Origin: Rhizobiales bacterium Ga0077556
GTDB taxonomy: Bacteria > Pseudomonadota > Alphaproteobacteria > Rhizobiales > Phreatobacteraceae
Direction: 5' to 3'
NCBI GenBank assembly: GCA_001464235.1
Contig: LNFH01000420.1
Location: 1 to 36,041 of the forward strand
DNA: 36,041 nt
The notes below the pieces were generated by a model, which saw only the letters and a program-made list of their open reading frames with translations, did not search any database and had not been told where the DNA came from. Shown piece after piece: positions 7,119 through 23,315 of this stretch (positions are counted from its first letter, which is position 1; the number at the start of each line of letters is the position of its first letter). Made by a program: the position numbers and the translations under genes.

Positions 7119-7582
7119 CGTCAGAGGTGACCAGGCAAGACGAGGCGCACCGGCTTTGGCCGGAACGGCAATGGAGGGGGACCTGCGAGTCGTAAGCGGG
7201 AGCGGGTCATCTGTCACCTCGGCGCCGCGCGCAGATGCCACGCGTGGGACGGGCGACCTGCGGCATCGGAGCCCCAGCCGGCATGCGAATAAAACCTTGG
7301 ACCTATTCACTATTCATGCGATGATGTTCCATCGCTGCAACGTGCCGTCACCTTGCTTCGATGCAATTCGATCCATCGACGATCCTATCGGGGCGCGCTT
7401 GTGTTTCATGCGACGCCGCCGATGCGACAATGGTCGAGCCGGCGCCGCGGCGCCGGAGCGGATGATCGACTGCGATACTGACGGCGACGTCCTCTTCCTG
7501 CGATTGCGATTTGACGTGGCGTGCCGGTTCTTCCGGTGCCCGCGCCGCCTCCTGCGCGCGACCGCCGACCGAAAGATCAGTC
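7119..7582. other. Intergenic region without a recognisable gene
   Basis: 464 bases between the divergent dpaL operon and the zinc-ribbon gene. A more AT-rich patch lies near 7285-7335 and probably contains promoters for one or both sides. Open frames crossing the region on either strand have no recognisable motif or ribosome site, and I treat them as chance frames in GC-rich DNA. Confidence 0.5.
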
Positions 7583-7948
7583 ATGACATATGACAATTCC
7601 CTTCGCCGCACTTCGTCTCCCCGTCGCTTCGACGCGCTCCATGCCGAAGGCTGGTCCGGCTGCCCGGCCTGCGGCGTCCGCCACCCGATCGCGCCGGTCG
7701 GGTCCCGCCATCTCGCGCCCGATCGCATCGAGCACGACTGGCATTGCGACTCCTGCGGGCACAGCTGGACCACGACTCTCGCCGGGACCGGCGGAAGCCT
7801 TCGCCCGGGGGCGGCGCCCCGTCACGACAATGACGCCGGGACCGCGGTCTTCCGGATCGTCCCGGCTGACAGGGCCCTGCTGCGGAACGCCGTCCTCGCG
7901 GCCCGCATGTCCGGCTCCTCCGCCATCGTCCTCCCGTTCCGCCCGTGA
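7583..7948 (+). CDS. Small zinc-ribbon protein, function unknown
   Basis: Protein of 121 residues with two CxxC knuckles (GCPACGV near residue 27 and HCDSCGHSW near residue 56), which together could bind one zinc ion as a treble- or ribbon-type fold. The rest is low in recognisable features and rich in Ala, Arg and Pro. The ATG at 7583 was chosen because the knuckles then sit near the start; a longer version from 7511 adds only arginine-rich sequence. The next gene begins at or just after its stop, so the two may be co-translated. I do not recognise the family. Confidence 0.55.
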   Translation: MTYDNSLRRTSSPRRFDALHAEGWSGCPACGVRHPIAPVGSRHLAPDRIEHDWHCDSCGHSWTTTLAGTGGSLRPGAAPRHDNDAGTAVFRIVPADRALLRNAVLAARMSGSSAIVLPFRP

Positions 7949-7956
7949 CCCTCGCC

Positions 7957-8244
7957 ATGACAGTCGCCAGCCTGGTCCGCAGTCTCGCCGTCGCCGGCGC
8001 CTTTGCCACGACCATGGCCATGGCTGCCGAGCCCAGCGCGCCGGCGGGGCGCGCACCGACGGGCGAGGAACGGCGCGCCATCGACCAGCAGTTGACCGAG
8101 GCCGGGCTCGCCGCGGTCGGCGAGGTGACGCTGGTCGGCAGCCGTTGGTCGCTTCAGGCCTCCGCTCTCGCCACGGGTGCACGGTTCACCCTCGAGCTGA
8201 GCAATCTCGACTTCGCCATCGTCAGCCGTCGCGCCGCGCCCTGA
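7957..8244 (+). CDS. Small secreted protein, possibly PepSY-like
   Basis: Protein of 95 residues with a Sec signal: hydrophobic stretch SLVRSLAVAGAFATTMAMAA and a likely cleavage after AMA-A. The mature part of about 70 residues has one helix (EERRAIDQQLTEAG) followed by beta strands (AVGEVTLVGSRWSLQA), a pattern that recalls PepSY-like periplasmic proteins, though the match is weak. A GTG at 7945 overlaps the upstream stop (GTGA) and would add four residues; I prefer the ATG because it places the signal directly at the N-terminus. The function is unknown. Confidence 0.5.
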   Translation: MTVASLVRSLAVAGAFATTMAMAAEPSAPAGRAPTGEERRAIDQQLTEAGLAAVGEVTLVGSRWSLQASALATGARFTLELSNLDFAIVSRRAAP

Positions 8245-8369
8245 GGGCGGCCGCCGAGCCATGCGCGCGGCGGATGCCTCGCTTCCCGCCGCGCTCGCTG
8301 GCCAAGGCGTGAGGCCCGTGGAATGGTCTCGCCGCGACCACCGGCTGCGAGCGACGGGACCTTCAGGAC

Positions 8370-9845
8370 ATGCGCATCTTCACCGCCAGCATCGCCACGG
8401 AGACGAACACCTTCTCTCCCATTCCGACGTCGCTGGAGAGCTACCTGACGAGCCTGGCGGCCCGGCCGGGCGAGCATCCCACCGACAAGCCGACGCTGTG
8501 CACCGCGCCGCTGTTCGTCGCCCGCCGCCGCGCGGCGCAGGAAGGGTTCACGCTGGTCGAGGGCTCCTGCTTCTTCGCCCAGCCGGCCGGACCGACCACG
8601 AAGGTCGCCTACGAGACCATGCGTGAGGAAATCCTCGACCAGCTGAAGGCGGCGCTGCCGGTGGACGGCGTGCTGCTCGGCATGCACGGGGCCATGGTCG
8701 CCGACGGTTACGAGGACTGCGAGGGCGACATGCTCGAGCGCGTGCGGGCCATCGTCGGTCCGTCCTGCGTCATCGGCGTCGAGCTCGATCCGCACAACCA
8801 CATGACGACGAAGCGCGTCGGCCTCGCCGACATCATCATCTGCTTCAAGGAATATCCGCACGTCGACATCGTGCCGCGCGCCGAGGAACTTGTGACGCTG
8901 GTCCTGAAGACGATCCGCAAGGAGATCCGCCCGGTCGCCTCGCTCTACGACTGCGGCATGATCGCCTTCTATCCCACGACCTCGGAGCCCAACACCTCCT
9001 TCGTCGCCCGGCAGAAGAGCTTCGAGGGGCGCGACGGCGTGCTCTCCGTCTCCTTCGTCCACGGCTTTCCCCATGCCGACGTGCCGGAGATGGGCTCGCG
9101 GGTGCTGGTCTATACCGACGCCGCCAAGGCGACCGGCGATGCGCTGGCGACGCGGCTCGGGGAGGAGATCATCGCCCTGCGCGGCAAGACCGCGCCTCCC
9201 AACCTCGATTTCGCCGAGGCTCTCGACCAGGCGCTGGCGGCCGACACCGCGAAGGGTCCGGCCATCATCGCCGAACCGGCCGACAATGCCGGCGGCGGCT
9301 CGGCCTCCGACAACACGCTGTCGCTGCGCGAACTCGTCGCCCGCGGGGTGGAGAACGCGGCGGTGGCGCCGCTCTGGGACCCGCTAGCGGTCGGCTTCTG
9401 CCATGCGGCGGGAGCCGGCGCCCGCCTGCGCCTGCGGATCGGCGGCAAGACCTCGGAGCTCTCGGGCGAACCGTTCGACGCCGACTGCGAGGTGCTGGCG
9501 GTGGCGAAGGACTGCCACCAGAGCTTCGGCGAGGCGAAGGGGCCGGTCGGCGATCTCGCGGCGGTGAAGATCGCCGGCGTCACCGTGATCATGAACACCA
9601 ATCGCGCCCAGGCGCTGGGGCGCGAGCTGTTCACCGCCCTCGGCCTCGACCCCGCGTCCTACCGGCTGCTGGTGCTGAAATCGGCGCAGCACTTCATGGC
9701 GGCCTATGGCCCGCTCGCCTCGCACGTCTTCTACTCGGAGACGCAGGGGCCCTCGACCCAGCGCTACGAGACCCACCACTACACGCGGATCGCCCGGCCG
9801 AAATGGCCGTTGGATGCCGAGGCGCCGGGCGCGCTGATCCTCTGA
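8370..9845 (+). CDS. M81 family metallopeptidase (MlrC-like)
   Basis: Protein of 491 residues of the MlrC/M81 family, whose founding member breaks down linear products of microcystin. The conserved opening MRIFTASIATETNTFSP, the zinc-site segments LLGMHGAMVADGYEDCEGD and ELDPHNHMT, and the C-terminal domain ending with the SAQHFMAAY and TQGPSTQRYE region are all present. An AGGAC stands just before the ATG. Family members outside microcystin degraders are widespread in alphaproteobacteria beside amino acid and peptide importers, where the substrate is unknown. Here the gene is convergent with the aapJQM importer, with stops seven bases apart, so the two are not one operon but may belong to one amino acid or peptide theme. 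Confidence 0.9.
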   Translation: MRIFTASIATETNTFSPIPTSLESYLTSLAARPGEHPTDKPTLCTAPLFVARRRAAQEGFTLVEGSCFFAQPAGPTTKVAYETMREEILDQLKAALPVDGVLLGMHGAMVADGYEDCEGDMLERVRAIVGPSCVIGVELDPHNHMTTKRVGLADIIICFKEYPHVDIVPRAEELVTLVLKTIRKEIRPVASLYDCGMIAFYPTTSEPNTSFVARQKSFEGRDGVLSVSFVHGFPHADVPEMGSRVLVYTDAAKATGDALATRLGEEIIALRGKTAPPNLDFAEALDQALAADTAKGPAIIAEPADNAGGGSASDNTLSLRELVARGVENAAVAPLWDPLAVGFCHAAGAGARLRLRIGGKTSELSGEPFDADCEVLAVAKDCHQSFGEAKGPVGDLAAVKIAGVTVIMNTNRAQALGRELFTALGLDPASYRLLVLKSAQHFMAAYGPLASHVFYSETQGPSTQRYETHHYTRIARPKWPLDAEAPGALIL

Positions 9846-9852
9846 CGCCGTC

Positions 9853-10998
9853 TCAGCGAACCCGTTCGGGGTTGAGGTCCTTCTCCAGCCGCTGCGAATA
9901 GCGGCTCATCGTGTAGCAGGCGATGAAATAGACGAAGGCGGCGTAGAGATAGGCCTCGGTGGCGAAGCCCAGCCAGTTGGAATCGCCCAGCGCCGAGCGC
10001 AGCGTCGTGAAGAAGTCGAAGATGCCGATGATGAGCACCAGCGTCGTGTCCTTGAACAGGCCGATGAAGGTGTTCACCTGCGCGGGAATGGTGATCTTCA
10101 GGGCCTGCGGCATGACGATGAACCGCATGGTCTGGGCATAGTTCAGGCCGAGCGACTGTGCGCCCTCGAACTGGCCCTTCGGGATGGCCTGGAGGCCCCC
10201 GCGGAAGACCTCCGCCATGTAGGCGGCGGCGAAGGCGATGAAGGCGATCTGGGCGCGGATCAGCCGGTCGATCTCGACTCCCTGCGGCATGAAGAGCGGC
10301 ACGATGAAGGTGGCGATGAAGAGGAGCGAGATCAGCGGCACGCCGCGGATGAACTCGATCCAGGCGACCGAGAGGGCACGCACCACGGGCCGCCGCGACC
10401 GCCGGCCGAGGGCCAGCATGATGCCGATGGGATAGGCCATGGCGAGGCCGAAGACCGACAGGAAGATGGTGACCAGCCAGCCGCCCCAGAGCCGGGTTGC
10501 CACGGGCTCGAGGCCGGGGATCGGGATGCCGAGGACCGAGCCGCCCATCAGGCCCCACATCAGGGCGAGAACCGCCAGCCAGGCGTAGACGAGTTCCCGC
10601 CGCCAGAAGACGCGCTGCGTCGAGAAGGCCACCATGACCGCGAAGATCACCAGGACGGTGGCCGGCCGCCAACGCTGCTCGAAGGGGTAGAGGCCGAAGA
10701 CCGAGAACCAGAATTTTTCGCCGATGAAGGCCCAGCAGGCCCCTCCCGCCTCGCGGCACTGGGCGGCGGTGCCGGTCCAGGTGGCGTTGATGAAGGCCCA
10801 TGTCAGGAAGGGCGGCAGCGTCCAGGCGAGGACGGCGAGGCAGACGATGGTGATCGCCGCCGTGCCGGGCGTGCCGAAATAGGTGCGGAAGAGCGCGACC
10901 GGCCACGGCGGCAGGACGCTCGCCGGCGGCTTCAGGTCGGCCAGCTTCTCGTCGGCGACGTAGTGGACGAGCGCGTCCGGGGAGACGGGGCGGTTCAT
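9853..10998 (-). CDS. aapM: General L-amino acid ABC importer permease AapM
   Basis: Inner-membrane permease of the polar amino acid (HAAT) family, 381 residues. It has the long AapM-type N-terminal half with several membrane segments before the transport core. The core carries an EAA-type loop (GAQSLGLNYAQTMRFIVMPQALK) that contacts the ATPase. The ATG at 10998 lies four bases after the aapQ stop. In the standard aapJQMP order an ATPase gene should follow, but here the next gene is the convergent mlrC-like gene, so aapP is missing at this locus. Expected cargo is broad: acidic, basic and neutral L-amino acids. Confidence 0.92.
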   Translation of the reverse strand: MNRPVSPDALVHYVADEKLADLKPPASVLPPWPVALFRTYFGTPGTAAITIVCLAVLAWTLPPFLTWAFINATWTGTAAQCREAGGACWAFIGEKFWFSVFGLYPFEQRWRPATVLVIFAVMVAFSTQRVFWRRELVYAWLAVLALMWGLMGGSVLGIPIPGLEPVATRLWGGWLVTIFLSVFGLAMAYPIGIMLALGRRSRRPVVRALSVAWIEFIRGVPLISLLFIATFIVPLFMPQGVEIDRLIRAQIAFIAFAAAYMAEVFRGGLQAIPKGQFEGAQSLGLNYAQTMRFIVMPQALKITIPAQVNTFIGLFKDTTLVLIIGIFDFFTTLRSALGDSNWLGFATEAYLYAAFVYFIACYTMSRYSQRLEKDLNPERVR

Positions 10999-11002
10999 GG
11001 GG

Positions 11003-12181
11003 TCAGCGCTCCCGGATCGCGACACGGCCGTTGTACCAGTTCATGAAACCGGAGGTCAGCAGCGAGATCGTGAGATAGACGAGGGCGAAGACGAGGATCA
11101 CCTCCACGGCGCGGCCTGTCTGGTTCATGGTCGTGTTGGAGACGTGGACGAGGTCGGGATAGCCGATCGCCACCGCCAGCGACGAGTTCTTGGTGAGGTT
11201 GAGATACTGGCTGGTGAGCGGCGGGATGATCACCCGCAGCGCCTGCGGCAGGATCACGAGCCGCATGATGCGCGGGGACGGCAGCCCGAGCGCGCGGGCG
11301 GCCTCCCACTGGCCCTTGGAGACGGCGACGATGCCGCCGCGCACGATCTCAGCGATGAAGGCGGCGGTGTAGAGCACCAGGCCGAGCAGCAGGGCGACGA
11401 ATTCCGGCGACAGCTCGATGCCGCCGGTGAAGTTGAAGCCTTGGAGGACGGGCACGCTGATGGTGGCCGGAAAGCCCTGGACGGCGAGCGCCAGGAAGGG
11501 CGGCACGACCACCAGCGCGACGGCGATGGGCAGGGTCGGCGGCGCGTCGCCGGTCGCCTCTCGGCGCCGCTTCAGCGCGCGGGCGGCGATGACCGCGGCC
11601 ACGATGCCGGCGACGAAGGCCCAGACGACGGGCCAGAGCACATGGGACCATTCCACCCACGGCACCTTCATGCCGCGGTTCGACAGGTACATGCCCGGCC
11701 CGAGCGGCAGGGCCTGCCGTGGGCCCGGCAGGGTGTTGATGATGGCGTACCAGAGGAAGAGCTGCAGCAGCAGCGGGGTGTTGCGGACGACCTCGACATA
11801 GCCGGCGACGAGGCGCGCCAGCAGCGGGTTCGAGGACAGGCGCATGACGCCGATCGCGACGCCGAGAAGGGTGGCGAGGACGATGCCGACCACCGCGATG
11901 CGCAGGGTGTTGAGAAGCCCGACGACGAGGGCGCGGCCGTAGCTGTCGGTCGGGGCGAAGGGAATGAGACCCTCGCCGACCGCGAAATTGGCGGGGCGGG
12001 AGAGGTAGTCCCAGCCGAAGGTGAGGCCGCGCGCCACCATGTTCGCGGACATGTTGGACCAGGCGGCCCAGACCACGAGCACGACGAAGGCGAGGAGCGC
12101 CGCCTGGAGGGCGAGCCCGCGCTTGACCGGATCGTTCCAGAAGGCCGTCCGGGCCGCCGGCGGGGTCTCGATCGTGCTCAT
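11003..12181 (-). CDS. aapQ: General L-amino acid ABC importer permease AapQ
   Basis: Partner permease to AapM, 392 residues, also larger than simple HisM/HisQ proteins. Conserved AapQ landmarks include VVRNTPLLLQLFLWY, the EAA loop AARALGLPSPRIMRLVILPQALR and the C-terminal NTTMNQTGRA segment. I chose the ATG at 12181 (MSTIETPP) because family proteins start similarly and a GGAC lies at suitable spacing; an ATG at 12193 adds four residues. A strong stem-loop with a T-run separates it from aapJ, so the permease genes probably receive less transcript than the binding protein. Confidence 0.92.
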   Translation of the reverse strand: MSTIETPPAARTAFWNDPVKRGLALQAALLAFVVLVVWAAWSNMSANMVARGLTFGWDYLSRPANFAVGEGLIPFAPTDSYGRALVVGLLNTLRIAVVGIVLATLLGVAIGVMRLSSNPLLARLVAGYVEVVRNTPLLLQLFLWYAIINTLPGPRQALPLGPGMYLSNRGMKVPWVEWSHVLWPVVWAFVAGIVAAVIAARALKRRREATGDAPPTLPIAVALVVVPPFLALAVQGFPATISVPVLQGFNFTGGIELSPEFVALLLGLVLYTAAFIAEIVRGGIVAVSKGQWEAARALGLPSPRIMRLVILPQALRVIIPPLTSQYLNLTKNSSLAVAIGYPDLVHVSNTTMNQTGRAVEVILVFALVYLTISLLTSGFMNWYNGRVAIRER

Positions 12182-12236
12182 GAGAACGTCCATGGTGCCG
12201 TAGCGGCCGGAAGGGCACGCAAGAGGCATGCCCGGC

Positions 12237-12268
12237 AAAAAGGCGCCGGGGCGCGGGCGCGCCCCGGC
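12237..12268 (-). terminator. Attenuator or terminator hairpin between aapJ and aapQ
   Basis: Read on the minus strand, a perfect 10-base-pair stem (GCCGGGGCGC with GCGCCCCGGC, 12245-12268) with a four-base loop is followed, after three bases, by five T residues at 12241-12237. This is a standard intrinsic terminator shape. Its place right after the binding-protein gene suggests partial termination, which would give more AapJ than permease. Confidence 0.7.
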
Positions 12269-12302
12269 AAGTCAAGGCTGCCGGTCGATGGCAATGCGCC
12301 GG

Positions 12303-13337
12303 TCAACGGGCCGGCGGGGCGTAGAGAAGGCCGCCCTTGGTCCAGATGGCGTTCTGGCCGCGCTCGAGGCCGAGGGGCGTGTTGACGCCGAGATGACGCT
12401 CGAAGATCTCGCCGTAATTGCCGAAGGCCTTGATGATGGTGCGGGCATACTGGTCGTTGGCCGCGCCGATCGCCGTGCCCATGCCCGGCTCAACGCCGAG
12501 CAGGCGACGGATGCGGGGATCGGTGGCGGAGCCGGCGATCTGGTCGACGTTGGCCTGGGTGATGCCGAATTCCTCGGCGTCGATCAGGGCGAAGACGGTC
12601 CAGGCGACGATGTTGGTGAGCTCCTCGTCGCCCTGGCGGATGGTCGGGCCGAGGGGCTCCTTGGAGATGCGCTCCGGCAGGATCACGTGGTCGCGCGGGT
12701 TGGCGAGCAGCGTGCGCTGGGCGGCGAGCGCGGCGAAGTCGTTGGTGAAGACGTCGCAGCGGCCCTGGTCGTAGGCGCGGCGCAGCTCGTCCAGCGCCTC
12801 GATGACGACGGGGCGGAAGGTCATGTTGTTCTGGCGGAAGTAGTCCGCGAGGTTCAGCTCGGTCGTGGTGCCCGGCTGGACGCAGACGGTGGCGCCGTTC
12901 AGGGCGCGGGCCGAGGTCACGTTGAGGCGGCGCGGCACCATGATGGCCTGGCCGTCATAGAAGACGATGGCCGGGAAGTTGAAGCGGTTGACGCCGGTGT
13001 CGCGGGTCAGCGTCCAGGTCGTGTTGTTCGACAGGACGTCGACCTCGCCGTTGGTGAGGGCCGGGAAACGCGACTGGGTGGTCACCGGCACGAACTCGAC
13101 CTTGGACGGGTCGTTGAAGATCGTGATGGCGATGGCACGGCAGATCTCGACGTTGAAGCCGCCCCAGACACCCTGCGCGTTCGGCACGCCGAAGCCGGGG
13201 TTGGACGGGCCCTGAACGCCGCAGCGGATCGTGCCGCGGGCCTTGATGGCGTCGAGATCGCGGCCCGCCTCAGCGGCCGTCGGGCCGAAGACGAGGGCGG
13301 TGGCCGCGAGGCCCGCCAGGACGATGTTCCTGATCAT
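12303..13337 (-). CDS. aapJ: General L-amino acid ABC importer binding protein AapJ
   Basis: Periplasmic receptor of 344 residues with a Sec signal ending at PTAAEA, so cleavage is probably near residue 24. The mature protein starts with the AapJ-like TIRCGVQGPSNPGFG and continues with GVWGGFNVEICRAIA. Paired cysteines (RCGV with VEIC, TVCV with RCDV) are typical of this family. The ATG at 13337 follows AGGAGAG. It is the first gene of aapJ-aapQ-aapM. The 365 bases upstream contain a perfect 16-base palindrome that might regulate it. Confidence 0.93.
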   Translation of the reverse strand: MIRNIVLAGLAATALVFGPTAAEAGRDLDAIKARGTIRCGVQGPSNPGFGVPNAQGVWGGFNVEICRAIAITIFNDPSKVEFVPVTTQSRFPALTNGEVDVLSNNTTWTLTRDTGVNRFNFPAIVFYDGQAIMVPRRLNVTSARALNGATVCVQPGTTTELNLADYFRQNNMTFRPVVIEALDELRRAYDQGRCDVFTNDFAALAAQRTLLANPRDHVILPERISKEPLGPTIRQGDEELTNIVAWTVFALIDAEEFGITQANVDQIAGSATDPRIRRLLGVEPGMGTAIGAANDQYARTIIKAFGNYGEIFERHLGVNTPLGLERGQNAIWTKGGLLYAPPAR

Positions 13338-13702: not shown

Positions 13703-15607
13703 TCAGACAGACGGACGGGACGCACTCCGCCAGGCGCGGGGATCGAGGCCATGGGCCTTCAGCCGCGACGCGAAGGTGGTCGGGCGAAGGCCGAGCCTCT
13801 CGGCGGCGCCGCCCGGTCCGGACACCTTGCCGCCCGAGAGCTCCAGCGCCGCGACCAGGCTGCGCCGGTCGAGCTGGCGCCTCTCCTCCTCGGTCAGCAG
13901 GCCGTCGGCCGGCATCACGATCGCTTCTGGAACCGCGCGGCTCGGGGCGCTGCCCGGCAGGTCGATGGCGAGGCGGCCCTTGCGGGCGAGGATGGCGGCG
14001 CGCTCGATGACGTTCTGCAATTCGCGCACGTTGCCCGGCCAGGCATAGCCGGCGAGGCGGCGCACGTCCTCCTCCGACAGCCCGAGGCCGGAGATCTTCA
14101 GCTTGCGCTCGGCGTGGCGGAGGAAATGCAGCGCCAGCGGCGCGACGTCGTCGACGCGCTCGCGCAGCGGGACGGAATGGATGGGGAAGACGTCGAGGCG
14201 GAAATACAGATCCTCGCGGAACCGCCCTGCCCTCACCTCGGCGCGCAGGTCGCGGTTGGTCGCGGCGATGACGCGCACGTCGACGCTGCGGGTGCGCTCC
14301 TCGCCGACGCGCTCGAACTGGCCCTCCTGCAGGATGCGCAGGAGCTTGCCCTGCAGCTCGAGCGGGATCTCGCCGACCTCGTCGAGGAAGAGCGTGCCGC
14401 CGTCGGCCAGTTCGAACCGGCCGATGCGGTCGCGCAGCGCGCCGGTGAAGGCGCCGCGCACGTGGCCGAAGAACTCGCTCTCGAAGAGCTCACGCGGGAT
14501 CGCCGCGCAGTTGACGCGGATGAGCGGCCGGTCGCGCCGTCCGCTGGCCTCGTGGATGGCGCGGCCGATCAGTTCCTTGCCGGTGCCGGATTCACCGGTG
14601 ACGAGGACGGTCGCGTCGGTCGGGGCGACGAGGTCGATCTGGCGCAGCGTCTTCTGGATGGCCGCCGAGCGCCCGATGATGCCACGGTGGTTGCTCTCGA
14701 GGCGGATTTCCTCCTGCAGATAGGCGTTCTCGCGCTCCAGTCGCTGGCGCAGGCTGTCGACCTCGGCGAGGGCCTGTCGCAGCTTCTCCTCCGCCTCGCG
14801 CCGCTGGCTCACGTCGCGGAACACGATCACGGCGCCGATGATGGCGCCGCGCTCGCGGATGGGCGTCGAGGTGTATTCGACCCAGAGCGGCGTGCCGTCC
14901 TTGCGCCAGAAGACCTCGCCCGCGACGGTCTGGACCGCGCCGTTCCGGAAGGCCGCATAGATCGGGCAATCGTGGTTCGGATAGGGAGAGCCGTCGGCGT
15001 GATGGTGGTGGACGAGCGAGTGCATGTCCTTGCCCACCAGTTCCTCCGCGGCCCAGCCGAGCAGGGCTTCGGCCGCCGGATTGACGAAGGTGGTCTTGCC
15101 GTCGGCATTGACGCCATAGATCCCCTCGCCCGCCGCCTTGAGGATGAGCTGGTTCTCCCGCTCGATGGTGTGAAAGAGGCGCTCGACCCGTTTCCACTCG
15201 TCGATGCCCTGGCGCAGCGTCCCATCGGCATCGGCGTCGACGTCCCGGCGGTGGCGTGCGTCGAGGTCGGCCATGGCGAGGAGGATGAGGGGCTCGGCTC
15301 CGGCCCGCAGCACGGTGCCTGCATATTCGACGCGCAGGGTGCCGCCACCCGCCTTCAGCGGCGACAGGCTGCGGGTATGGGCGAGACCCCGATGGAGGAC
15401 CTCCTCGGTGAAGACGACGAGGGCCGGCCGCTGGCCGCGGTGCAGATCCGTGATCCTGAGGGCCCTGAGCGCCGCAGCGGGATAGCCGAGGAGCCGCTCG
15501 GCGGCCGGATTGGCGTCGACGATGGCCGCAGAGCGCGGATCGACGACCAGCGCGGGTTCGGCCAGGGCGGTGAAGGCGGCCCCGGCGGGGGATGCGGTCG
15601 GGATCAT
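13703..15607 (-). CDS. cynF: Sigma54-dependent activator with two PAS domains, CynF-like
   Basis: Enhancer-binding protein of 634 residues. There is a divergent PAS-like domain at about 10-115, a second PAS domain at about 150-268 (typical [12 protein letters not shown] and [17 protein letters not shown]), a coiled-coil linker at 270-305 and an AAA+ domain from about 308. The AAA+ part has Walker A GESGTGKE at 338-345, the sigma54-contacting GAFTGA at 385-390 and Walker [13 protein letters not shown] at 403-414. A Fis-type helix-turn-helix lies at about 590-620. There is no receiver domain, so it senses a ligand or redox state itself. The start at 15607 follows GAGGAGG. It is divergent from the cyanate operon, as cynF is associated with cynABDS in Pseudomonas pseudoalcaligenes. 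Sensing cyanate or nitrogen status is inferred. Confidence 0.88.
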
Positions 15608-15737: not shown

Positions 15738-15753
15738 TGGCCTCGACCTTGCT
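15738..15753 (+). promoter_or_regulatory. Sigma54 (-24/-12) promoter of the cyanate operon
   Basis: TGGCCTCGACCTTGCT matches the consensus TGGCAC-N5-TTGCW except at the two AC positions. The invariant GG and GC are exactly ten bases apart. The predicted start is near 15764, which leaves a leader of about 38 bases before the cynA ATG, with the AAGGA ribosome site inside it. A divergent gene for a GAFTGA-type activator and the upstream inverted repeats support this reading. Confidence 0.75.
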
Positions 15754-15801: not shown

Positions 15802-17184
15802 ATGGCCCTGTTCGACAATCCGTTCAATGCCGCGAAGCGTTTCCTGAAGGGCTGCGTCTGCGGCCGCCACGCCTCAGATGCCGAACATGAGGCCGCGATC
15901 ACGGCGGAAGCCGTCGCCGTCGAGGCGGCCGGCGAGGAGAGCCGCTACCGCCGCATCGTCGAGCAGGCGGTGATGCGCGCCCTCTTCCCTGAGGACCACC
16001 AGCGCCGCGCCTTCCTGAAGGCGGTGGGCGCCTCCACCGCCGCCGCTGCCATCGCCACCTTCTTCCCCATCGGCGCGGCCACCGAGGCCCTCGCGCAGAC
16101 GGGTCCGATCGAGAAGAAGGACCTCAAGGTCGGCTTCATCCCGATCACCTGCGCCACGCCGATCATCATGGCCCATCCGCTCGGCTTCTACTCGAAGCAC
16201 GGCCTCAACGTGGAGGTGGTGCGCACCGCCGGCTGGGCGGTCATCCGCGACAAGACCATCAACAAGGAATACGACGCCGCGCACATGCTGGCGCCGATGC
16301 CGCTCGCCATCACCATGGGCGCCGGCTCGAACCCGATCCCCTACGCCGTCTCGGCCATCGAGAACATCAACGGCCAGGCGATCACGCTCGCCAACAAGCA
16401 CAAGGACAAGCGCGATCCGCGCCAGTGGAAGGGCTTCCGCTTCGCGGTGCCCTTCGACTATTCCATGCACAACTACCTGCTGCGCTACTACCTCGCGGAG
16501 CACGGCATCGATCCGGACCGCGACGTGCAGATCCGCTCCGTGCCGCCGCCGGAGATGGTCGCCAACCTGCGCGCCGACAACATCGACGGCTATCTCGGCC
16601 CCGACCCGTTCAATCAGCGCGCGGTCTTCGACGGCGTCGGCTTCATCCACATGCTCTCCAAGGAGCTGTGGGACGGACATCCGTGCTGCGCCTTCGCGGC
16701 GAGCCGCGAGTTCGTCACCGGCATGCCCAACACCTATCGCGCGCTGCTGAAGGGCATCATCGACGCCACGGCCCATGCGCAGAAGCCGGAGAACCGCAAG
16801 CAGATCGCCGAGGCCATCGCGGCGCCGAACTATCTCAACCAGCCGGTCACCGTGCTGGAGCAGATCCTCACGGGCACCTATGCCGACGGGCTCGGCCAGG
16901 TGAAGCGCGACCCGAACCGCATCCAGTTCGATCCGTTCCCGTGGGAGAGCTTCTCGGTGTGGATCCTCACCCAGATGAAGCGCTGGGGCCAGATCAAGGG
17001 CGACGTCGACTATGCCGGCATCACCCGCCAGGTGTTCCTGGCGACCGACGCGGCGGCGATGATGAAGGAGCTCGGCCTGACCCCGCCGGAGACCTCCACC
17101 AAGACCTTCTCGGTCATGGGCAAGGCCTTCGATCCCGCCAAGCCGGAGGAGTACATCGCCTCCTTCGCCATCAAGCGGACCTGA
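15802..17184 (+). CDS. cynA: Cyanate ABC importer binding protein, CmpA/NrtA family
   Basis: Periplasmic receptor of 460 residues from the nitrate/bicarbonate/cyanate group. The start at 15802 follows AAGGA at suitable spacing. An unusual leader of about 60 residues contains [13 protein letters not shown] and precedes a Tat-like signal ([13 protein letters not shown], then a hydrophobic run ending EALAQ near residue 98). I have seen such leaders in other proteobacterial members of this family. The mature part has the family landmarks [41 protein letters not shown] and [12 protein letters not shown]. Cyanate is favoured over nitrate or bicarbonate because cyanase closes the operon. It is the first gene behind the sigma54 promoter. 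Confidence 0.88.
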
Positions 17185-17210
17185 CGGCCGGACGCCGCGG
17201 AGCCCTGCCG

Positions 17211-17675
17211 ATGACCCGGCCTCCCCTGCCGCCCTTCACGCTGGAGACGGCGCGCCAGAAGGTGCGCGCCGCCGAGGACGCGTGGAACACGCGCGATCCC
17301 GACCGCGTGGCGCTGGCCTATACCGAGGGCAGCACCTGGCGGAACCGGTCGGAGTTCTTCTCCGGCCGGCCGGCGATCCGCGCCTTCCTCGCGGCGAAAT
17401 GGGCGCGGGAACAGGACTACAGGCTGATCAAGGAGCTCTGGGCCTTCCACGAGAGCCGGATCGCCGTGCGCTTCCAGTACGAGTGGCACGACGGCGCCGG
17501 CCAGTGGTTCCGCTCCTACGGCAACGAGCAGTGGCAGTTCGACGCCGACGGCTTCATGGAGCGGCGCGAGGCCAGCATCAACGACGTGCCGATCCGCGAG
17601 ACGGACCGGCTGTTCACCTGGGAGGCGGGTCCCCGCCCGGCCGGCTTCCCCGGCCTGACGGAACTCGGCCTGTGA
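17211..17675 (+). CDS. DUF1348 (NTF2-like fold) protein inside the cyanate operon
   Basis: Cytoplasmic protein of 154 residues, matching DUF1348, a family with an NTF2/SnoaL-like cone fold. Typical segments are [38 protein letters not shown] and [18 protein letters not shown]. No function is known for the family; the fold often holds small ligands or serves as an isomerase or hydratase. It sits 26 bases after cynA and 25 bases before cynB in the same direction, so it is almost certainly co-transcribed with the cyanate genes. A role in handling carbamate, bicarbonate or cyanate would be a guess. The ribosome site is poor and the ATG choice rests on the conserved start of the domain. Confidence 0.85.
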
Positions 17676-17700
17676 CGCCGGCAAGCCAGGAGATCCCATC

Positions 17701-18546
17701 ATGACCCGTTCGGTCGGCGCCCGCGCGCTGGTCCTCTCCCTCGTCATTCTCGGCGTCTTCCTCGCCGCCTGGCACGTTGCCGTCAGCGGCGGCGGCGCGG
17801 GGGGCCAGGCGGTCGATCCGGAATATGCCAAGCTCGTGGGGGCTGCGGCCGCCACCGGCGGGCAGACGCCCATGCCCGGGCCGGTGGACGTCGGCAAGGC
17901 GATCTGGAAACACCTCTCCGACCCGTTCTACGTGCGCGGCACCAACGACATGGGCATCGGCATCCAGCTCGCCTATTCGCTGGCCCGCGTGCTGATCGGC
18001 TTCGGCATCGCCGTGGCGGTGGCCGTGCCGCTCGGCTTTCTCATCGGCATGTCGCCCATCGTCTACCGGGCGCTCGACCCCTTCATCCAGGTGATGAAGC
18101 CGATCTCGCCGCTCGCCTGGATGCCGCTCGCCCTCTACACGATCAAGGATTCCTCGCTCTCCTCGATCTTCGTGATCTTCATCTGCTCGCTCTGGCCGAT
18201 GCTGATCAACACGGCCTTCGGCGTCGCCTCGGTGCGCAAGGACTGGCTGAACGTCGCCCGCACGCTCGAGGTCGGGCCGGTGCGCAAGGCTTTCACGGTG
18301 ATCCTGCCGGCGGCGGCGCCGACCATCCTCACCGGCATGCGCATCTCCGTCGGCATCGCCTGGCTGGTGATCGTCGCCGCCGAGATGCTCGTGGGCGGCA
18401 CGGGCATCGGCTACTTCGTCTGGAACCAGTGGAACAACCTGTCGCTCACCGACATCATCACGGCCATCCTGCTGATCGGCCTCGTCGGCATGGCTCTGGA
18501 CCAGATCCTGGCGCGCCTCACGCGCCTCGTGACCTATCCGGAGTGA
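17701..18546 (+). CDS. cynB: Cyanate ABC importer permease
   Basis: Inner-membrane permease of 281 residues in the NrtB/CmpB group. There is one N-terminal membrane segment ([19 protein letters not shown]), then a periplasmic stretch of about 65 residues, then a five-segment core. The ATPase-contact loop is [28 protein letters not shown] stands at good distance from the ATG at 17701. It pairs with CynA and CynD to bring cyanate into the cytoplasm for cyanase. Confidence 0.88.
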
Positions 18547-19442
18547 CGCGCGTGGCCGCTTCCTACATCTCCATCGAGGGCATCGCCCGCCGCTTCCCCG
18601 CCCCCGAGGGCGGCAAGACCACCATCTTCGAGGACCTCTGGTTCGCGATGGAGCGGGGCGAGTTCGTCTGCGTCATCGGCCATTCCGGCTGCGGCAAGAC
18701 CACCGTCCTCAACATCCTGGCAGGGCTTGACGAGCCGAGCGAGGGCGCCGTCATCATCGACGGCAAGGCGATCGAGGGGCCGAGCCTCGACCGCGCGGTG
18801 ATCTTCCAGAGCCACGGCCTGCTGCCCTGGCGCACGGTGCTCGGTAATGTCGCCTATGCCGTCTCGTCGAAATGGCGAGACTGGCCCAAGGCGAAGGTCG
18901 AGGACCATGCGCGCAAGGCCATCGCCACGGTCGGCCTGTCGGGCGCCGAGATGAAGAAGCCTGCCCAGCTCTCCGGCGGCATGAAGCAGCGCGTCGGCAT
19001 CGCCAGGGCGCTGTCCATCGAACCGAAGATCATGCTGATGGACGAGCCGTTCTCGGCCCTCGACGCGCTGACCCGCGGCACCCTGCAGGACGAGGTGCGC
19101 GGCATCTGCCGCACCACCGGCCAGACCGTGTTCATGATTACCCACGACGTGGACGAGGCCATCTACCTCGCCGACAAGATCGTGCTGATGACCAACGGGC
19201 CGGATGCCCGCGTCGCGGAGATCGTCGTCAATCCTTTGCCGGCTGACCGTTCGCGCAACGAGGTGCACAAGCACCCCGCCTACTATCCCGTGCGCAACCA
19301 CATCATCGATTTCCTGGTGGCGCGCTCGAAGAGCTTCGCGACCGAGCTGGCCCAGCCCGGCAAGGTGTGGAACCGCCGCGCCCCGCCTCTCGTCACGCCC
19401 GGCGCCGCCGGCGGCCCTGCGCCGCTGGTGCGGGCCGTCTGA
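18543..19442 (+). CDS. cynD: Cyanate ABC importer ATP-binding protein
   Basis: ATPase of the NrtD/CmpD group, 299 residues. Walker [10 protein letters not shown] is at 46-54, LSGGM at 143-147, Walker B IMLMDEP at 163-169 and the switch histidine at 201. The GTG at 18543 overlaps the permease stop (GTGA); a second in-frame GTG lies at 18552, so the start is uncertain by three residues. After the core there is a C-terminal extension of about 80 residues including [23 protein letters not shown], common in nitrate and cyanate ATPases. There is no NrtC-style receptor domain fused to it. Confidence 0.9.
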
Positions 19443-19477: not shown

Positions 19478-19966
19478 ATGATCCGCGACGACCTCACGGA
19501 AAAGATTCTCGACATCAAGCGCGAGAAGGGCTGGACCTGGAAGCACATCACCGACGAGATCGGCGGCATGTCGCCGGTCCTGGTGATCGGCGCCCTGCTC
19601 GGCCAGCACAAGCTGGTGAAGCCGCTGGCGAAGAAGGCGGCGGGACTGTTCGGCCTCTCCGCCGCCGAGGAGGCCATGCTCAACGAGGTGCCGATGCGCG
19701 GCACCGGCACCTCCATGCCGCCGACGGACCCGCTGATCTACCGCTTCTACGAGCTCGTCCTCGTCAACGGTCCGGCCTGGAAGGCGATCATCGAGGAGGA
19801 GTTCGGCGACGGCATCATGTCGGCGATCGACTTCAACATGGAGTTCGAGCGCGAGCCGAACCCGAAGGGCGACCGGGTGAAGATCACCATGTCCGGCAAG
19901 TTCCTGCCCTTCAAGTACTACGGAAACGAGCAGGGCATCCCTGACTACGGCTTCAAGGAAGCCTGA
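19478..19966 (+). CDS. cynS: Cyanate hydratase (cyanase)
   Basis: Cyanase of 162 residues. It combines cyanate with bicarbonate to give carbamate, which falls apart to ammonia and CO2. The active-site triad known from E. coli (R96, E99, S122) is present as R89 and E92 in YRFYELV and S115 in DGIMSAIDF, with constant spacing. The N-terminal helical domain (KILDIKREKGWTWKHI) and the dimerising C-terminal domain ending GIPDYGFKEA are complete. The ATG follows AAGGAG. It is the last gene of the operon, 35 bases after cynD. No carbonic anhydrase gene (cynT) is nearby, so bicarbonate must come from elsewhere. Confidence 0.97.
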   Translation: MIRDDLTEKILDIKREKGWTWKHITDEIGGMSPVLVIGALLGQHKLVKPLAKKAAGLFGLSAAEEAMLNEVPMRGTGTSMPPTDPLIYRFYELVLVNGPAWKAIIEEEFGDGIMSAIDFNMEFEREPNPKGDRVKITMSGKFLPFKYYGNEQGIPDYGFKEA

Positions 19967-20075: not shown

Positions 20076-20555
20076 ATGGACAGGACGACCGAGACCCGCG
20101 ACGCGCGCATGAGCGACACCACAGACCTCATGCGACTGACCTACTTCAGCCGCCACGACCTCCCCTGCGACGCCGACGGGTTCAACCCCGCCTTCACCGC
20201 GATCGAACAGGTGGCGGTGCCGCGCAACGGCGATCTCGGGATCACCGGCTTTCTGATCTGCGCCCGCGCCTGGTTCGCCCAGGTCATCGAGGGGCCGGCG
20301 GCGAGCATCGAGCAGCTCTACGCCCTCATCGAGCCCGACCCGCGGCATCACTCGCTGCAGGTGGTCGAGCACGTCGCCGCCGAGCGCCGGCTCTTCCCCG
20401 ACTGGCACATGGCGATCGGCCATGCCTCGCCCCAGGCCGGCATGGTCTTCGCGACGCTCGACTTCTCCGAGGTCGAGGCGCCGCAGGGCCGCCTGCCCAG
20501 TGACTTCCACGATCTTGCGACCGACCTCGCCGCGCTGAAGCGGCTGACGGACTGA
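20076..20555 (+). CDS. BLUF-domain blue-light sensor
   Basis: Short photoreceptor of 159 residues consisting almost only of a BLUF domain, which binds FAD. The three flavin-network residues are present: Y23 (RLTYFSRH), N51 (PRNGDLGITGFLI) and Q69 (WFAQVIEG). The Asn-Gln spacing is the same as in AppA; between Tyr and Asn there are about four extra residues. There is no output domain, so it must act through a partner protein. An ATG at 20109 would trim 11 residues and places the domain right at the start; neither start has a clear ribosome site. It follows the cyanate operon after a stem-loop and is probably separate. Confidence 0.88.
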   Translation: MDRTTETRDARMSDTTDLMRLTYFSRHDLPCDADGFNPAFTAIEQVAVPRNGDLGITGFLICARAWFAQVIEGPAASIEQLYALIEPDPRHHSLQVVEHVAAERRLFPDWHMAIGHASPQAGMVFATLDFSEVEAPQGRLPSDFHDLATDLAALKRLTD

Positions 20556-20559
20556 CGGC

Positions 20560-21348
20560 TCAGAACCCCGCCTGCACCGCGATGATCGTCTCGCCGCGGA
20601 TATCCTCGGTGAGCTGCTCCTCGAGCCGGCCGAAATCGGGCGTGGTCTTCAGCTTGTAGGACCGCGGGTGGGCGAAGGGGATCGTCACCTCGCTCTTGAA
20701 CCGGCCGGGACGGGCGCTCATCACCAGCACGCGGTTGGCCATGAACACGGCCTCCTCGATGTCGTGGGTGACGAAGAGCACGGTCTTGCGGTGCGTCTCC
20801 CAGATGGAGAGCAGCAGCTCCTGCATCAGCGAGCGGGTCTGGTGGTCGAGCGCGCCGAAGGGCTCGTCGAGCAGCAGGACCTTGGGGTCGTTGGCGAGCG
20901 CACGGGCGAGCGCGGCGCGCTGCTGCATGCCGCCCGAGAGCTGCTTGGGATAGTGGTTGGCGAACTGGGTGAGGCCCACCTGCGCCATCAGCTTCTCGGC
21001 GACGGCGCGACGCTCGGCAGCCCCCACCCCGCGCTCGCGCGGGCCGAACTCGATGTTCTCGACGACCGTGAGCCAGGGGAAGAGCGTGTAGCTCTGGAAC
21101 ACCATGCCGCGGTCGGCGCCCGGGCCTGTGACGGGCTTGCCGTCGAGCGTCACGGTGCCGGTGGTCGGGCGGTCGAGGCCGGCGACGATGCGCAACAGCG
21201 TGGACTTGCCGCAGCCGGAGGGGCCGAGGATGGCCACGAAGTCGCCCTCCCCCACGCTGAGGTCGACCGGCGCCAGCGCCTGGACCGGGTCGCCGCCGCG
21301 CACGCCCGGGAAGGTGCGCGAGACGCCCTTGACGACGACGCCGCTCAT
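20560..21348 (-). CDS. ABC transporter ATP-binding protein, SsuB/TauB-like
   Basis: ATPase of 262 residues. Walker A GPSGCGKST is at 42-50, LSGGM at 137-141 and Walker B VLLLDEP at 157-163; the THDIEEA switch region follows. The ATG at 21348 overlaps the permease stop (ATGA). It is the last gene of an importer read leftward from 23232 and ends four bases from the convergent BLUF gene. The family imports sulfonates, taurine, nitrate or aromatic acids; the cargo is not evident here. Confidence 0.9.
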   Translation of the reverse strand: MSGVVVKGVSRTFPGVRGGDPVQALAPVDLSVGEGDFVAILGPSGCGKSTLLRIVAGLDRPTTGTVTLDGKPVTGPGADRGMVFQSYTLFPWLTVVENIEFGPRERGVGAAERRAVAEKLMAQVGLTQFANHYPKQLSGGMQQRAALARALANDPKVLLLDEPFGALDHQTRSLMQELLLSIWETHRKTVLFVTHDIEEAVFMANRVLVMSARPGRFKSEVTIPFAHPRSYKLKTTPDFGRLEEQLTEDIRGETIIAVQAGF

Positions 21349-22118
21349 ATCGTGCTCCAGGGAAACAGCTTCTGGTTGACCGCCTTGAACAGGAAGTCGG
21401 AGATGAGGCCGATGACGCCGATGACGATGATGCCGAATATCATCTGGCCGGTGGCGAGCAGCGCCTGGCTCTCGATGATCATGTGGCCGATCCCCGAGGA
21501 CGAGCCGATGAGCTCGGCGACGATGACGTAGGTCCAGGCCCAGCCGAGGACGAGGCGCAGGATCTCGGCGATCTGCGGCGCGGCATAGGGCACCATGACG
21601 CGGCCGACGATGCCGGCGTCGCGGGCGCCGAGGGTGAGCGCCGCCTCGACCAGGTCGCGGCGGATGGAGCCGACCGCGACCGCCACCATCAGCACGATCT
21701 GGAAGACCGAGCCGACGAAGATGACGAGCAGCTTCTGCTTCTCGCCGACGCCCGCCCACAGGATGAAGAGCGGGATGAAGGCGGAGGCCGGCAGGTAGCG
21801 GGCAAACGAGACGAAGGGCTCGAAGAAGGCCTCGACCGGCTTGTAGGCGCCCATGGCGAGGCCGAGCGGCACGGCGATGAGCGCTGCCAGAATGAACCCG
21901 CCGACGACGCGCCAGACGGTGACGGCGATGTCGGCGAGGAAGCCGTGGTTCGTGATGAGATACCAGCCCTCGCGCACCATCGTGACGGGGTCGGCGAGGA
22001 AGATCTTCGGCACGAGGCCGCCGAAGGTCACCGCCGCCCAGGCCGCGAAGAAGATCACGAAAAAGGAGATGCCGAGGACGACGCGCGCCGTCGTCGATAC
22101 GGGCTCGAGGGGTTTCAT
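21345..22118 (-). CDS. ABC transporter permease, SsuC/TauC-like
   Basis: Inner-membrane permease of 257 residues with about six membrane segments. The first is VVLGISFFVIFFAAWAAVTF and the ATPase-contact loop is EAALTLGARDAGIVGRVMVPYAAPQ. A SSSGIGHMIIESQ segment near the end is typical of the taurine/nitrate permease group. Its stop overlaps the ATPase start. The 151 bases separating it from the binding-protein gene hold a paired-hairpin repeat element. Confidence 0.9.
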   Translation of the reverse strand: MKPLEPVSTTARVVLGISFFVIFFAAWAAVTFGGLVPKIFLADPVTMVREGWYLITNHGFLADIAVTVWRVVGGFILAALIAVPLGLAMGAYKPVEAFFEPFVSFARYLPASAFIPLFILWAGVGEKQKLLVIFVGSVFQIVLMVAVAVGSIRRDLVEAALTLGARDAGIVGRVMVPYAAPQIAEILRLVLGWAWTYVIVAELIGSSSGIGHMIIESQALLATGQMIFGIIVIGVIGLISDFLFKAVNQKLFPWSTI

Positions 22119-22161
22119 GGGATCATCCGTTCCGCAGCATGCATAGCCGCGACCTCCAACG

Positions 22162-22253
22162 CGTCATGGCCGGGCTCGTCCCGGCCATCCACGACTTGAA
22201 CACAAGGGGTCAGCAGGACGTCGTGGATGCCCGGCACGAGGCCGGGCATGACG
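22162..22253. repeat. Paired-hairpin REP/BIME-like element
   Basis: Two 34-base arms (22162-22195 and 22220-22253) are inverted copies differing at only four bases. Each arm is also a perfect nine-base-pair hairpin: ATGGCCGGG with CCCGGCCAT in the first, ATGCCCGGC with GCCGGGCAT in the second. The four differences fall as matched pairs that keep both hairpins intact. It lies between the binding-protein and permease genes of the importer. Such elements are frequent intergenic repeats in GC-rich Hyphomicrobiales and may stabilise the upstream message. Confidence 0.75.
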
Positions 22254-22269
22254 ACGTGAGCGCGACTGC

Positions 22270-23232
22270 TTACTGGATGAAGCGCGTGTCGACCATGGTG
22301 TCGAAGTTCGGCTTCTGACGGATGATGCCGAGTTCCAGCAGCAGGTCGGCGGCCTTCTCGGAGAAGGTGCGCCACTCGCCGGCGAAGAAGGTCTTGTTCG
22401 CCGCCTGATCCTGCCAGCGCAGGTACTGCGCCGAATTGCCGAACTGCTCGGCCGTCTGGCGCACGTCGGCGCCCATGATGCGGAAGGCCTCGGCCTGGTT
22501 CGACTTGATCATCTCCAGCGCCTCGAAATAGCTCTTGGCGAGCGCGCGGACGGCGGCCTCGTTGCCCTGGATGAAGGCGGGCGTGCAGCCGAACGTGTCC
22601 ATCACCATGGGATAGTCGAGGGTGGTGGCGATGATCTTGCCGGCCTGCGGGGCGGCGCGCACCGACGACAGGAAGGGCTCGTAGGTCATGGCGGCATCGT
22701 TCTGGCCGGCGACGAAGGCCTGGGCGGCCGGACCCGGCTCCATGTTGACGACTGTGACGTCGCGGATGGAGAGGCCGTTCTCCTTCAGCATCCAGGCGAG
22801 GGTGAAATAGGGCGCAGTGCCCGGCGCCGAAGCCGCCACGGTCTTGCCGCGCAGGTCGCGGATCGAGTTGATGCCGTTGCGCACGGCCATGCCGTCGGCG
22901 CCGTAGCTCTTGTCGAGCTGGAAGAGCTGGGTGGTGGCGATGCCGTTGGCGTTCCAGACGATCCAGGTCTCCACCGTGGTCGCGGCGCACTGGATGTCGC
23001 CGGAGGCGATGGCGAGGTGGCGGCTCGCCTGAGGGATCTTGCGGATCGTCACGTCGAGGCCGTTGCGGGCGAAGATGCCGGCTTCCTTGGCCAGCGTCAG
23101 CGGGGCGAAGCCGGTCCAGCCGGAGATGCCGATATTGACCTTGGTCTGGGCGAAGGCCGGGCCGGCCATCGACAGGCCGAGGGCAAGGGCCGCGCCGGCC
23201 ATCAGGCCGCGCAGGGTGGACGGTTGCGACAT
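22270..23232 (-). CDS. ABC transporter substrate-binding protein, SsuA/TauA-like
   Basis: Periplasmic receptor of 320 residues. The ATG at 23232 follows AGAGGAG and is followed by a Sec signal (LMAGAALALGLSMAGPAFAQ, cleavage after AFA). Mature landmarks are NIGISGWTGFAPLTLAKEAGIF, the GDIQCAATTVETWIVW segment and GKTVAASAPGTAPYFTLAWML. These resemble receptors of the taurine/sulfonate/aromatic acid group. It is the first gene of the importer, and two direct repeats upstream (23316-23348) may bind a regulator. The next gene upstream encodes an unrelated TRAP receptor. Confidence 0.88.
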   Translation of the reverse strand: MSQPSTLRGLMAGAALALGLSMAGPAFAQTKVNIGISGWTGFAPLTLAKEAGIFARNGLDVTIRKIPQASRHLAIASGDIQCAATTVETWIVWNANGIATTQLFQLDKSYGADGMAVRNGINSIRDLRGKTVAASAPGTAPYFTLAWMLKENGLSIRDVTVVNMEPGPAAQAFVAGQNDAAMTYEPFLSSVRAAPQAGKIIATTLDYPMVMDTFGCTPAFIQGNEAAVRALAKSYFEALEMIKSNQAEAFRIMGADVRQTAEQFGNSAQYLRWQDQAANKTFFAGEWRTFSEKAADLLLELGIIRQKPNFDTMVDTRFIQ

Positions 23233-23315
23233 CGTCGTTCTCCTCTGGCGGCTCTGACGAACATGAACCGCTTCTGCCGTCACTCTAGGGGGGAGCTTCC
23301 ATCCCGCGGCATACG

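Follow-up and report, generated by a model that had tools for sequence, protein, structure and literature searches.

The window, the whole 36,041-nucleotide stretch of Rhizobiales bacterium Ga0077556 DNA analysed here, contains a cluster of cyanate genes in the order cynA-DUF1348-cynB-cynD-cynS, with a divergent cynF (Table 1). It has the divergent sigma-54 activator, NrtABD-like transporter and cyanase of clusters of the cynFABDS type, the order of which is broken after cynA by a gene for a protein of the DUF1348 family. The reading frame of this gene scores 220.3 bits against PF07080 (gathering score 22.1), residues 7-135 aligning with positions 1-129 of the 130 in the profile. The original prediction had placed a DUF1348 gene between cynA and cynB with gaps of 26 and 25 bases, and both the profile searches and the coordinates confirm this. 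The cynA-like protein has a twin-arginine signal, a motif spotted by eye.

Table 1. Features of the window around the cyanate gene cluster.
Feature	Position	Strand	Remarks
Diaminopropionate ammonia-lyase-like gene	5967-7310	-	
MlrC-like gene	8370-9845	+	Below cut-off
Polar amino-acid ABC transporter	9853-13337	-	
cynF-like sigma-54-dependent activator with PAS domains	13703-15607	-	PF00158 6.6e-72, plus PAS; divergent to operon
Sigma-54 (-24/-12) promoter-like element TGGCCTCGACCTTGCT	15738-15753	+	Score 13 of 15; upstream of cynA
cynA-like (CmpA/NrtA type) periplasmic binding protein	15802-17184	+	PF13379 (NMT1_2) 1.1e-85
Gap between cynA and DUF1348	17185-17210		26 nt
DUF1348 protein, NTF2/ketosteroid-isomerase-like fold	17211-17675	+	154 aa; PF07080 8.4e-66
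Gap between DUF1348 and cynB	17676-17700		25 nt
cynB-like permease, ntrB type	17701-18546	+	TIGR01183 216 bits, cut-off 209
cynD-like ATPase, ntrCD type	18552-19442	+	TIGR01184 289.6 bits, slightly below cut-off 291.8
cynS, cyanase	19478-19966	+	PF02560 2.9e-34; PF21291; NF002773 1.2e-62 and TIGR00673, both above cut-off
BLUF blue-light sensor gene	20109-20555	+	PF04940 3.3e-22; downstream of cynS
Second ABC transporter, SsuABC/Tau-like	20560-23283	-	Convergent with cyn operon
ATPase of the second transporter		-	
Permease of the second transporter	21345-22118	-	
Binding protein of the second transporter	22270-23283	-	

The window resembles the cynFABDS cluster of P. pseudoalcaligenes CECT5344 in its divergent sigma-54 regulator, ABC transporter, cyanase and sigma-54 promoter-like element before cynA, and differs from it by the extra DUF1348 gene, which lies between cynA and cynB here and at other positions in other genomes; in the available parts of the source, the CECT5344 cluster is described as cynF-cynABDS without additional genes (PMC6627978). 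The cyn cluster of E. coli (cynR, cynT, cynS, cynX) likewise combines a cyanase with an accessory gene, although there, as far as the same partly available source describes it, the accessory gene is the carbonic anhydrase CynT and the putative transporter is an MFS protein (PMC6627978). Downstream of cynS, the window has a gene for a BLUF blue-light sensor and a convergent second ABC transporter, and genes related to this transporter lie immediately 3' of cynS in several genomes of the window's genus. The genes beyond cynF (5967-13337) may together serve the catabolism of some unusual amino acid or peptide.

Transcription and selection

The sigma-54 promoter that belongs to clusters of the cynFABDS type is represented in the window by a sequence match, and when the region was shuffled 100 times the score of this element was reached twice. 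Scores of at least 13 were found in 33 of 34 cynF-cynA regions, the exception being L115, although these regions are not independent (seven come from the window's genus) and the score is exactly 13 in eight of them, the window included. Across the whole window the bare pattern occurs four times, against 4.05 expected by chance; since it is no commoner than chance, the weight of the element comes from its place and its conservation. Between 15600 and 20110 no sigma-70-like site was found, and terminator-like sites number one against a chance mean of 1.7. From the shared strand, the gaps and the conserved promoter-like element, we infer that DUF1348 is probably co-transcribed with cynA, cynB, cynD and cynS. 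Within the genus, purifying selection acts on the gene, whose pN/pS is 0.20 as against 0.08-0.12 for the four cyn genes (21 pairs each, from 7 genomes). Because it evolves faster than the cyn genes, it may be a less essential part of the operon.

Recurrence of DUF1348 in cyanate gene clusters

DUF1348 is present as a single copy in 7 of the 12 genomes of the window's genus, and its place in all seven is between the cynA and cynB genes of a cluster of the cynF type; three others (G001, G005 and G011) have cynS without DUF1348 and two further genomes have neither gene. An even sample of the window's order, 297 genomes in all, contained 119 with DUF1348 and 70 with cyanase. After removal of weak rows (DUF1348 in G090, G103 and G233; cynS in G099 and G202), both genes were present in 49 genomes and linked in 14, spread over 8 families. 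These 14 are the seven genus members, six in which DUF1348 lies 25-146 nt 3' of cynS on the same strand (L114, L134, L140, L145, L157 and L161), and one (L115) in which it adjoins the divergent cynF, on cynF's strand. The remainder comprise 34 genomes in which the genes are unlinked and one (G053) in which DUF1348 is found only beside a cynS remnant. In that genome, DUF1348 has been kept next to a remnant with a stop codon (L181, 8371-8841, minus strand), and G155, which has the same genus code, has DUF1348 and no cynS match.

Within the order sample, DUF1348 occurs in 35 of 38 genomes with cynABDS versus 81 of 259 without (Fisher p 4e-13), the corresponding figures being 16/17 versus 36/105 by genus (p 3e-6) and 14/14 versus 18/38 by family (p 3e-4); these p values ignore kinship, with no tree correction, the genus and family tallies were made by hand with weak DUF1348 rows kept in and 52 families in total read from codes, and G197, with no more than an ATPase match and cynS on its 3.8 kb contig, was scored as cynABDS. 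Two of the three cynABDS genomes that lack DUF1348 belong to the window's genus. The gene is also present in 67 of the 229 genomes of the sample that have no cynS and, being common in genomes without cyanase, is not dedicated to cyanate.

An even sample of the phylum (339 genomes) contained 16 genomes outside the order with both genes. These were linked within 10 kb in two, G476 and G513, both of one family, f79, by a by-eye count from their places, and the dense linkage signal is therefore not uniform. Family f79 was then sampled because these two links had already been seen there, and its rate therefore does not stand for a family picked at random: the 309 genomes around G513 include 113 with DUF1348, 130 with cyanase and 79 with both, and in 56 of these 79, from 33 genera, the two lie within 10 kb, always on the same strand (56/56), as against about 0.34 expected by chance for 5 Mb genomes. 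In 36 of the 79, from 23 genera, they lie within 1 kb (about 0.05 expected by chance, again for 5 Mb genomes). Measured as distances between Pfam domain ends, with the intervening genes read for L204 and L207 only, the arrangements in f79 place DUF1348 immediately 3' of cynS at 26-156 nt in 24 genomes, 3' of it at 441-771 nt in five, immediately 5' of it at 280-440 nt in seven, 5.5-8.4 kb upstream on the same strand in 14, about 3 kb downstream in four, and 1.9 kb upstream and 6.0 kb downstream in one genome each.

Among the best 80 of 590 named loci, DUF1348 follows cynS after 5 nt in a Hyphomicrobiales MAG (L305), 155 nt in a Hydrogenophaga MAG (L337), 1.1 kb in a gammaproteobacterial MAG (L301) and 2.1 kb in Azospirillum oleiclasticum (L296); in Nitrospira moscoviensis (L309) it lies about 6.7 kb from cynS with several genes between and was scored as loose, and the other 75 gave no cynS match in flanks of at most 8 kb, some of them far shorter. 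Synechococcus elongatus has matches for both DUF1348 and cyanase. The cyanase search gave no match in the Escherichia coli control genome, contrary to expectation. Plasmid records with the two genes together number at least two among the matches listed (40 of 273, 60 of 100 and 60 of 274 records were examined). Plasmid pB32-1 of Bosea sp. F3-2 has cynF followed by cynA-DUF1348-ntrB-ATPase-cynS, with DUF1348 starting 4 nt past cynA and overlapping ntrB by 4 nt. Plasmid plas2 of Loktanella salsilacus has Nit1C, cynF, cynABDS and DUF1348 in one stretch, DUF1348 coming 43 nt after cynS; the Nit1C cyanide-assimilation cluster is complete and lies directly beside cynF-cynABDS-DUF1348 (L392, 4451-16305), in what appears as a compact cyano-compound island. 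Cupriavidus metallidurans, like others, has both DUF1348 and cynS far apart.

A tree of 178 DUF1348 proteins has low resolution, with stars on 19 of its 173 branches. On it the linked label must change at least 13 times when the 20 linked rows are taken (17-20 times in 60 shuffles) and at least 9 times when the 16 rows of strict adjacency are taken, from which it follows that the linkage has been gained or lost repeatedly. DUF1348 is thus found in cyn clusters between cynA and cynB, after cynS, before cynS and beside cynF, and a linkage that is persistent yet shuffled points to a functional tie between DUF1348 and the cyn genes. The gene-neighbourhood survey that had been proposed as a check favours the link, with DUF1348 found again beside cynS in a variety of positions and in dozens of bacterial genera. 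Linkage in this strain only, which was to count against it, is contradicted by a link that extends across many lineages and positions.

DUF1348 outside cyanate gene clusters

In the order sample, 101 of 116 DUF1348-bearing genomes show no link to cynS or a remnant of it, and in f79 57 of 113 have no cynS link within 10 kb. The recurrent neighbours among 160 neighbourhoods are genes for TetR (18), LysR (14), alpha/beta hydrolase (11) and CMD (AhpD-like; 10) proteins, as obtained by crude gene calling and clustering in which each cluster is named by one representative; the unlinked neighbourhoods are 80 loci of the order, with cyn-bearing genomes chosen first. On annotated plasmids, the neighbours are TetR, glutathione transferase, PNPOx-family, peroxidase-related and MBL-fold genes. 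In L226, a glutamine synthetase gene (PF00120; 2544-3686) is found some 3 kb away from an unlinked DUF1348, and its cluster is present in four loci. The detoxification neighbours suggest a role in the clean-up of reactive compounds in general and lead us to prefer, for the cyn operon, detoxification to a bicarbonate role. The proteins PFL_3262 (PDB 2IMJ) and Cercospora 71cR belong to the same Pfam family as the window protein, and in the literature searched, as far as it was available, we found no function or cyanate context for either. Cercospora 71cR was studied for cercosporin resistance: in the available parts of that paper, N. crassa transformants carrying a fungal DUF1348 gene are called cercosporin-resistant, and fungal 71cR mutants are like the wild type in cercosporin resistance (PMC4608573).

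Fold and conserved residues

The AlphaFold model of the window protein has a mean pLDDT of 96.5 and closely matches 2imj (phmmer 2.3e-64; 63% identity by Foldseek; VIA Z 28.3, 1.4 A over 154 residues), 2IMJ being the one DUF1348 structure found. The next-nearest folds are ketosteroid isomerases (VIA Z about 15.8, rmsd 1.7-1.8 over 119-122 residues), in agreement with the DALI Z of 14.1-15.4 for 2IMJ against ketosteroid isomerase given in the parts of the 71cR study that were available (PMC4608573). Across 176 DUF1348 proteins, 52 positions, many of them polar, are conserved to at least 97%, and 16 polar residues are identical in all 176 (K17, N26, R44, R46, K63, E67, Y70, K74, R87, Y90, E91, R101, N105, E106, R119 and N124). 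With its ketosteroid-isomerase-like NTF2 fold and this degree of conservation, DUF1348 is probably a small soluble enzyme.

In ketosteroid isomerase, Asp40 is the catalytic base (P. putida numbering) and Tyr16 forms part of the oxyanion hole. A weak profile alignment (Prob 2.3), which spans 28-125 and so falls short of Tyr16, aligns Asp40 with Asn45, a position that is Asn in 175 of 176 proteins, and Asp103 with Glu106, which is Glu in all 176, and for this reason DUF1348 is unlikely to be a ketosteroid isomerase. Residues 89, 107 and 120 co-vary (Q/Q/E versus A/N/other), which gives two DUF1348 subtypes, with R/N/E in two linked proteins. The 25 Glu120 loci of the order set fall into 18 from cynABDS genomes, four from genomes with cynS or its remnant only and three from genomes with neither. 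Because 20 loci without Glu120, two of them outside the order, also lie in cynABDS genomes, and because the set is enriched for cyn genomes, we dropped the reading of these residues as marking a cyn-specific subfamily.

Carbonic anhydrases

That cynT is absent, as had been claimed, holds for the window, whose reading frames gave no match to a beta-carbonic anhydrase profile for which the genome's own enzyme served as seed; the only Pro_CA match of the genome lies on another contig (C323). Over 101 cyn regions (100 and the window), a beta-carbonic anhydrase match lay within reach in four, with a single-seed profile that could overlook more remote CynT proteins; it is beside cynS in L197, L200 and L210, and 2.4 kb away on the other strand in L142. 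Carbonic anhydrase is thus no regular member of cyn clusters, so that its absence in the window says little, and with four such regions there are too few for a test of exclusion between DUF1348 and CynT. Since most of the 101 regions have neither gene, we rejected the idea that DUF1348 replaces a carbonic anhydrase.

A metal-free class of carbonic anhydrases has a cone-shaped alpha+beta barrel of the NTF2-like kind, and in all2909 His197 and Ser199 are catalytically important, according to the available parts of the source (PMC8132391). The iota-class carbonic anhydrases (COG4337 and kin) have an NTF2-like fold of the same general class as DUF1348, whereas DUF1348 is without their His-Ser motif: residues 116-128, the last strand, contain no mostly-His column in 176 proteins. 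Three presumed iota-type proteins, chosen from PF08332 matches by the letters HHSS, which we take to be the spelling of that motif, show HHSS in their last strand. A comparison of DUF1348 with the presumed iota-type profile was not significant (Prob 0.9, E 0.061, residues 15-64 only), and we rejected an iota-carbonic anhydrase identity on these two grounds. Entries 7C5V and 7C5X are not among the best 50 structural matches, a list nearly filled by ketosteroid isomerase entries. Of what the original prediction expected, the functional handle on DUF1348 is provided by the linkage, the handling of carbamate, bicarbonate or cyanate stays a proposal, and bicarbonate chemistry by way of an iota-type carbonic anhydrase is not borne out; the structure comparison it proposed yields a ketosteroid-isomerase-like fold with invariant residues of its own and no iota-type His-Ser motif.

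Discussion

Cyanate serves as a nitrogen source and is at the same time toxic through the damage it does to proteins, and the cyanate operon is usually described as a transporter, a cyanase and sometimes a carbonic anhydrase. From the recurrent linkage described here, we are highly confident that DUF1348 serves cyanate metabolism, and it probably helps cells to live on cyanate or to tolerate it. In the explanation that we favour, which we put at a probability of about 0.38 as a whole and with its chemistry included, DUF1348 would be an accessory gene of the cyanate-assimilation operon, driven by the CynF/sigma-54 promoter, and would encode an enzyme that clears a reactive product of cyanate. 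The ABC transporter would import cyanate faster than cyanase removes it, and a reactive product, either isocyanic acid, its tautomer, or a small thiol or amine that has been carbamoylated, would then accumulate; DUF1348 would clear this product by a chemical step that we infer, and its relatives outside cyn clusters would carry out the same kind of clean-up on other electrophiles. The cercosporin resistance ascribed to the N. crassa transformants counts in favour of a detoxification role. Several observations run against this explanation: in 35 of the 49 order genomes with both genes, DUF1348 is not linked to an intact cynS; the even phylum sample has 2 of 16 linked outside the order; three cynABDS genomes are without DUF1348; the gene evolves faster than the cyn genes; the detoxification neighbours of unlinked copies vary and come from crude gene calling; and the fungal 71cR mutants are no different from the wild type in cercosporin resistance. 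In the literature searched, as far as its texts were available, we found no biochemical or genetic datum tying any DUF1348 to cyanate, and the literature matches listed, which cover few subscription journals and no bioRxiv preprints and were available in part, contain no description of DUF1348 in a cyanate operon.

Other explanations assign DUF1348 a different task. It might work on the CO2, bicarbonate and carbamate side of the reaction, rehydrating CO2 to bicarbonate as a functional stand-in for CynT or speeding the breakdown of carbamate, which would maintain the supply to cyanase. Bicarbonate is required by cyanase, the cyn cluster of E. coli includes the carbonic anhydrase gene cynT (PMC6627978, available in part), a metal-free carbonic anhydrase class with an NTF2-like fold exists (PMC8132391, likewise), and no beta-carbonic anhydrase match lies near any DUF1348-linked cluster examined. 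We nevertheless consider this role unlikely, given the absent His-Ser motif and the non-significant match to the presumed iota-type profile, the many DUF1348 genes in genomes without cyanase, and the prevalence of cyn regions with neither gene, in which a missing cynT leaves no gap to fill. A non-enzymatic partner or sensor, which would bind cyanate, bicarbonate or carbamate and tune CynF, the CynD ATPase or cyanase, would suit the L115 gene, which adjoins cynF on cynF's strand, and also the 14 f79 copies 5.5-8.4 kb upstream of cynS, which would be near cynF if their layout is like that of L204 and L206. Such a role seems improbable to us, since the position of the gene varies too widely for a dedicated partner of one gene, its many invariant polar residues resemble an active site, and many copies have no cyn genes nearby.

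We likewise give little credence to the proposal that DUF1348 acts on another cyano compound that accompanies cyanate, such as cyanide, a nitrile or thiocyanate/isothiocyanate adducts, the cyn operon being one of its several homes. The Loktanella stretch with Nit1C, cynFABDS and DUF1348 is what would be expected in that case, and two further records are of the same kind: an 8.9 kb contig of an Antarctic cyanobacterium with Nit1C and a gene of an 'ntf2' family, whose identity with DUF1348 is unstated in the available parts of the report (PMC9716671), and a 29 kb Tabrizicola plasmid with Nit1C, on which DUF1348 is flanked by MBL-fold hydrolase and PNPOx-family/glutathione-transferase genes. A general link to Nit1C, which Loktanella had prompted us to consider, was rejected, the other cyn and DUF1348 loci searched having given only scattered weak matches to Nit1C proteins (nitrilase-like at eight loci and one weak NitH-like). 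Finally, a common stress gene might have landed beside cyn genes by chance or hitch-hiking. DUF1348 is indeed common (119/297 genomes), and the even phylum sample has a mere 2/16 linked outside the order, but the excess over 0.34 expected in f79 (56/79 within 10 kb, all on one strand) and the repeated changes of the linked label on the tree (at least 9 for the strict 16 and at least 13 for the wide 20) make recurrent linkage by chance very unlikely.

A further and rather doubtful proposal is that DUF1348 represents an unrecognised enzyme family that undoes heterocumulene damage. Its members would hydrolyse or reverse the carbamoyl-type adducts of cyanate (HNCO), and the copies beside glutathione-transferase and MBL-hydrolase genes would do so for isothiocyanate adducts. 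If this were true, DUF1348 would be a common and overlooked third arm of the system, next to uptake (CynABD) and breakdown (CynS). A third operon component that turns up in dozens of genera would provide DUF1348, a family that is widespread, has a solved structure and had no function that we could find, with a testable role, and would imply that the usual scheme misses part of cyanate physiology.
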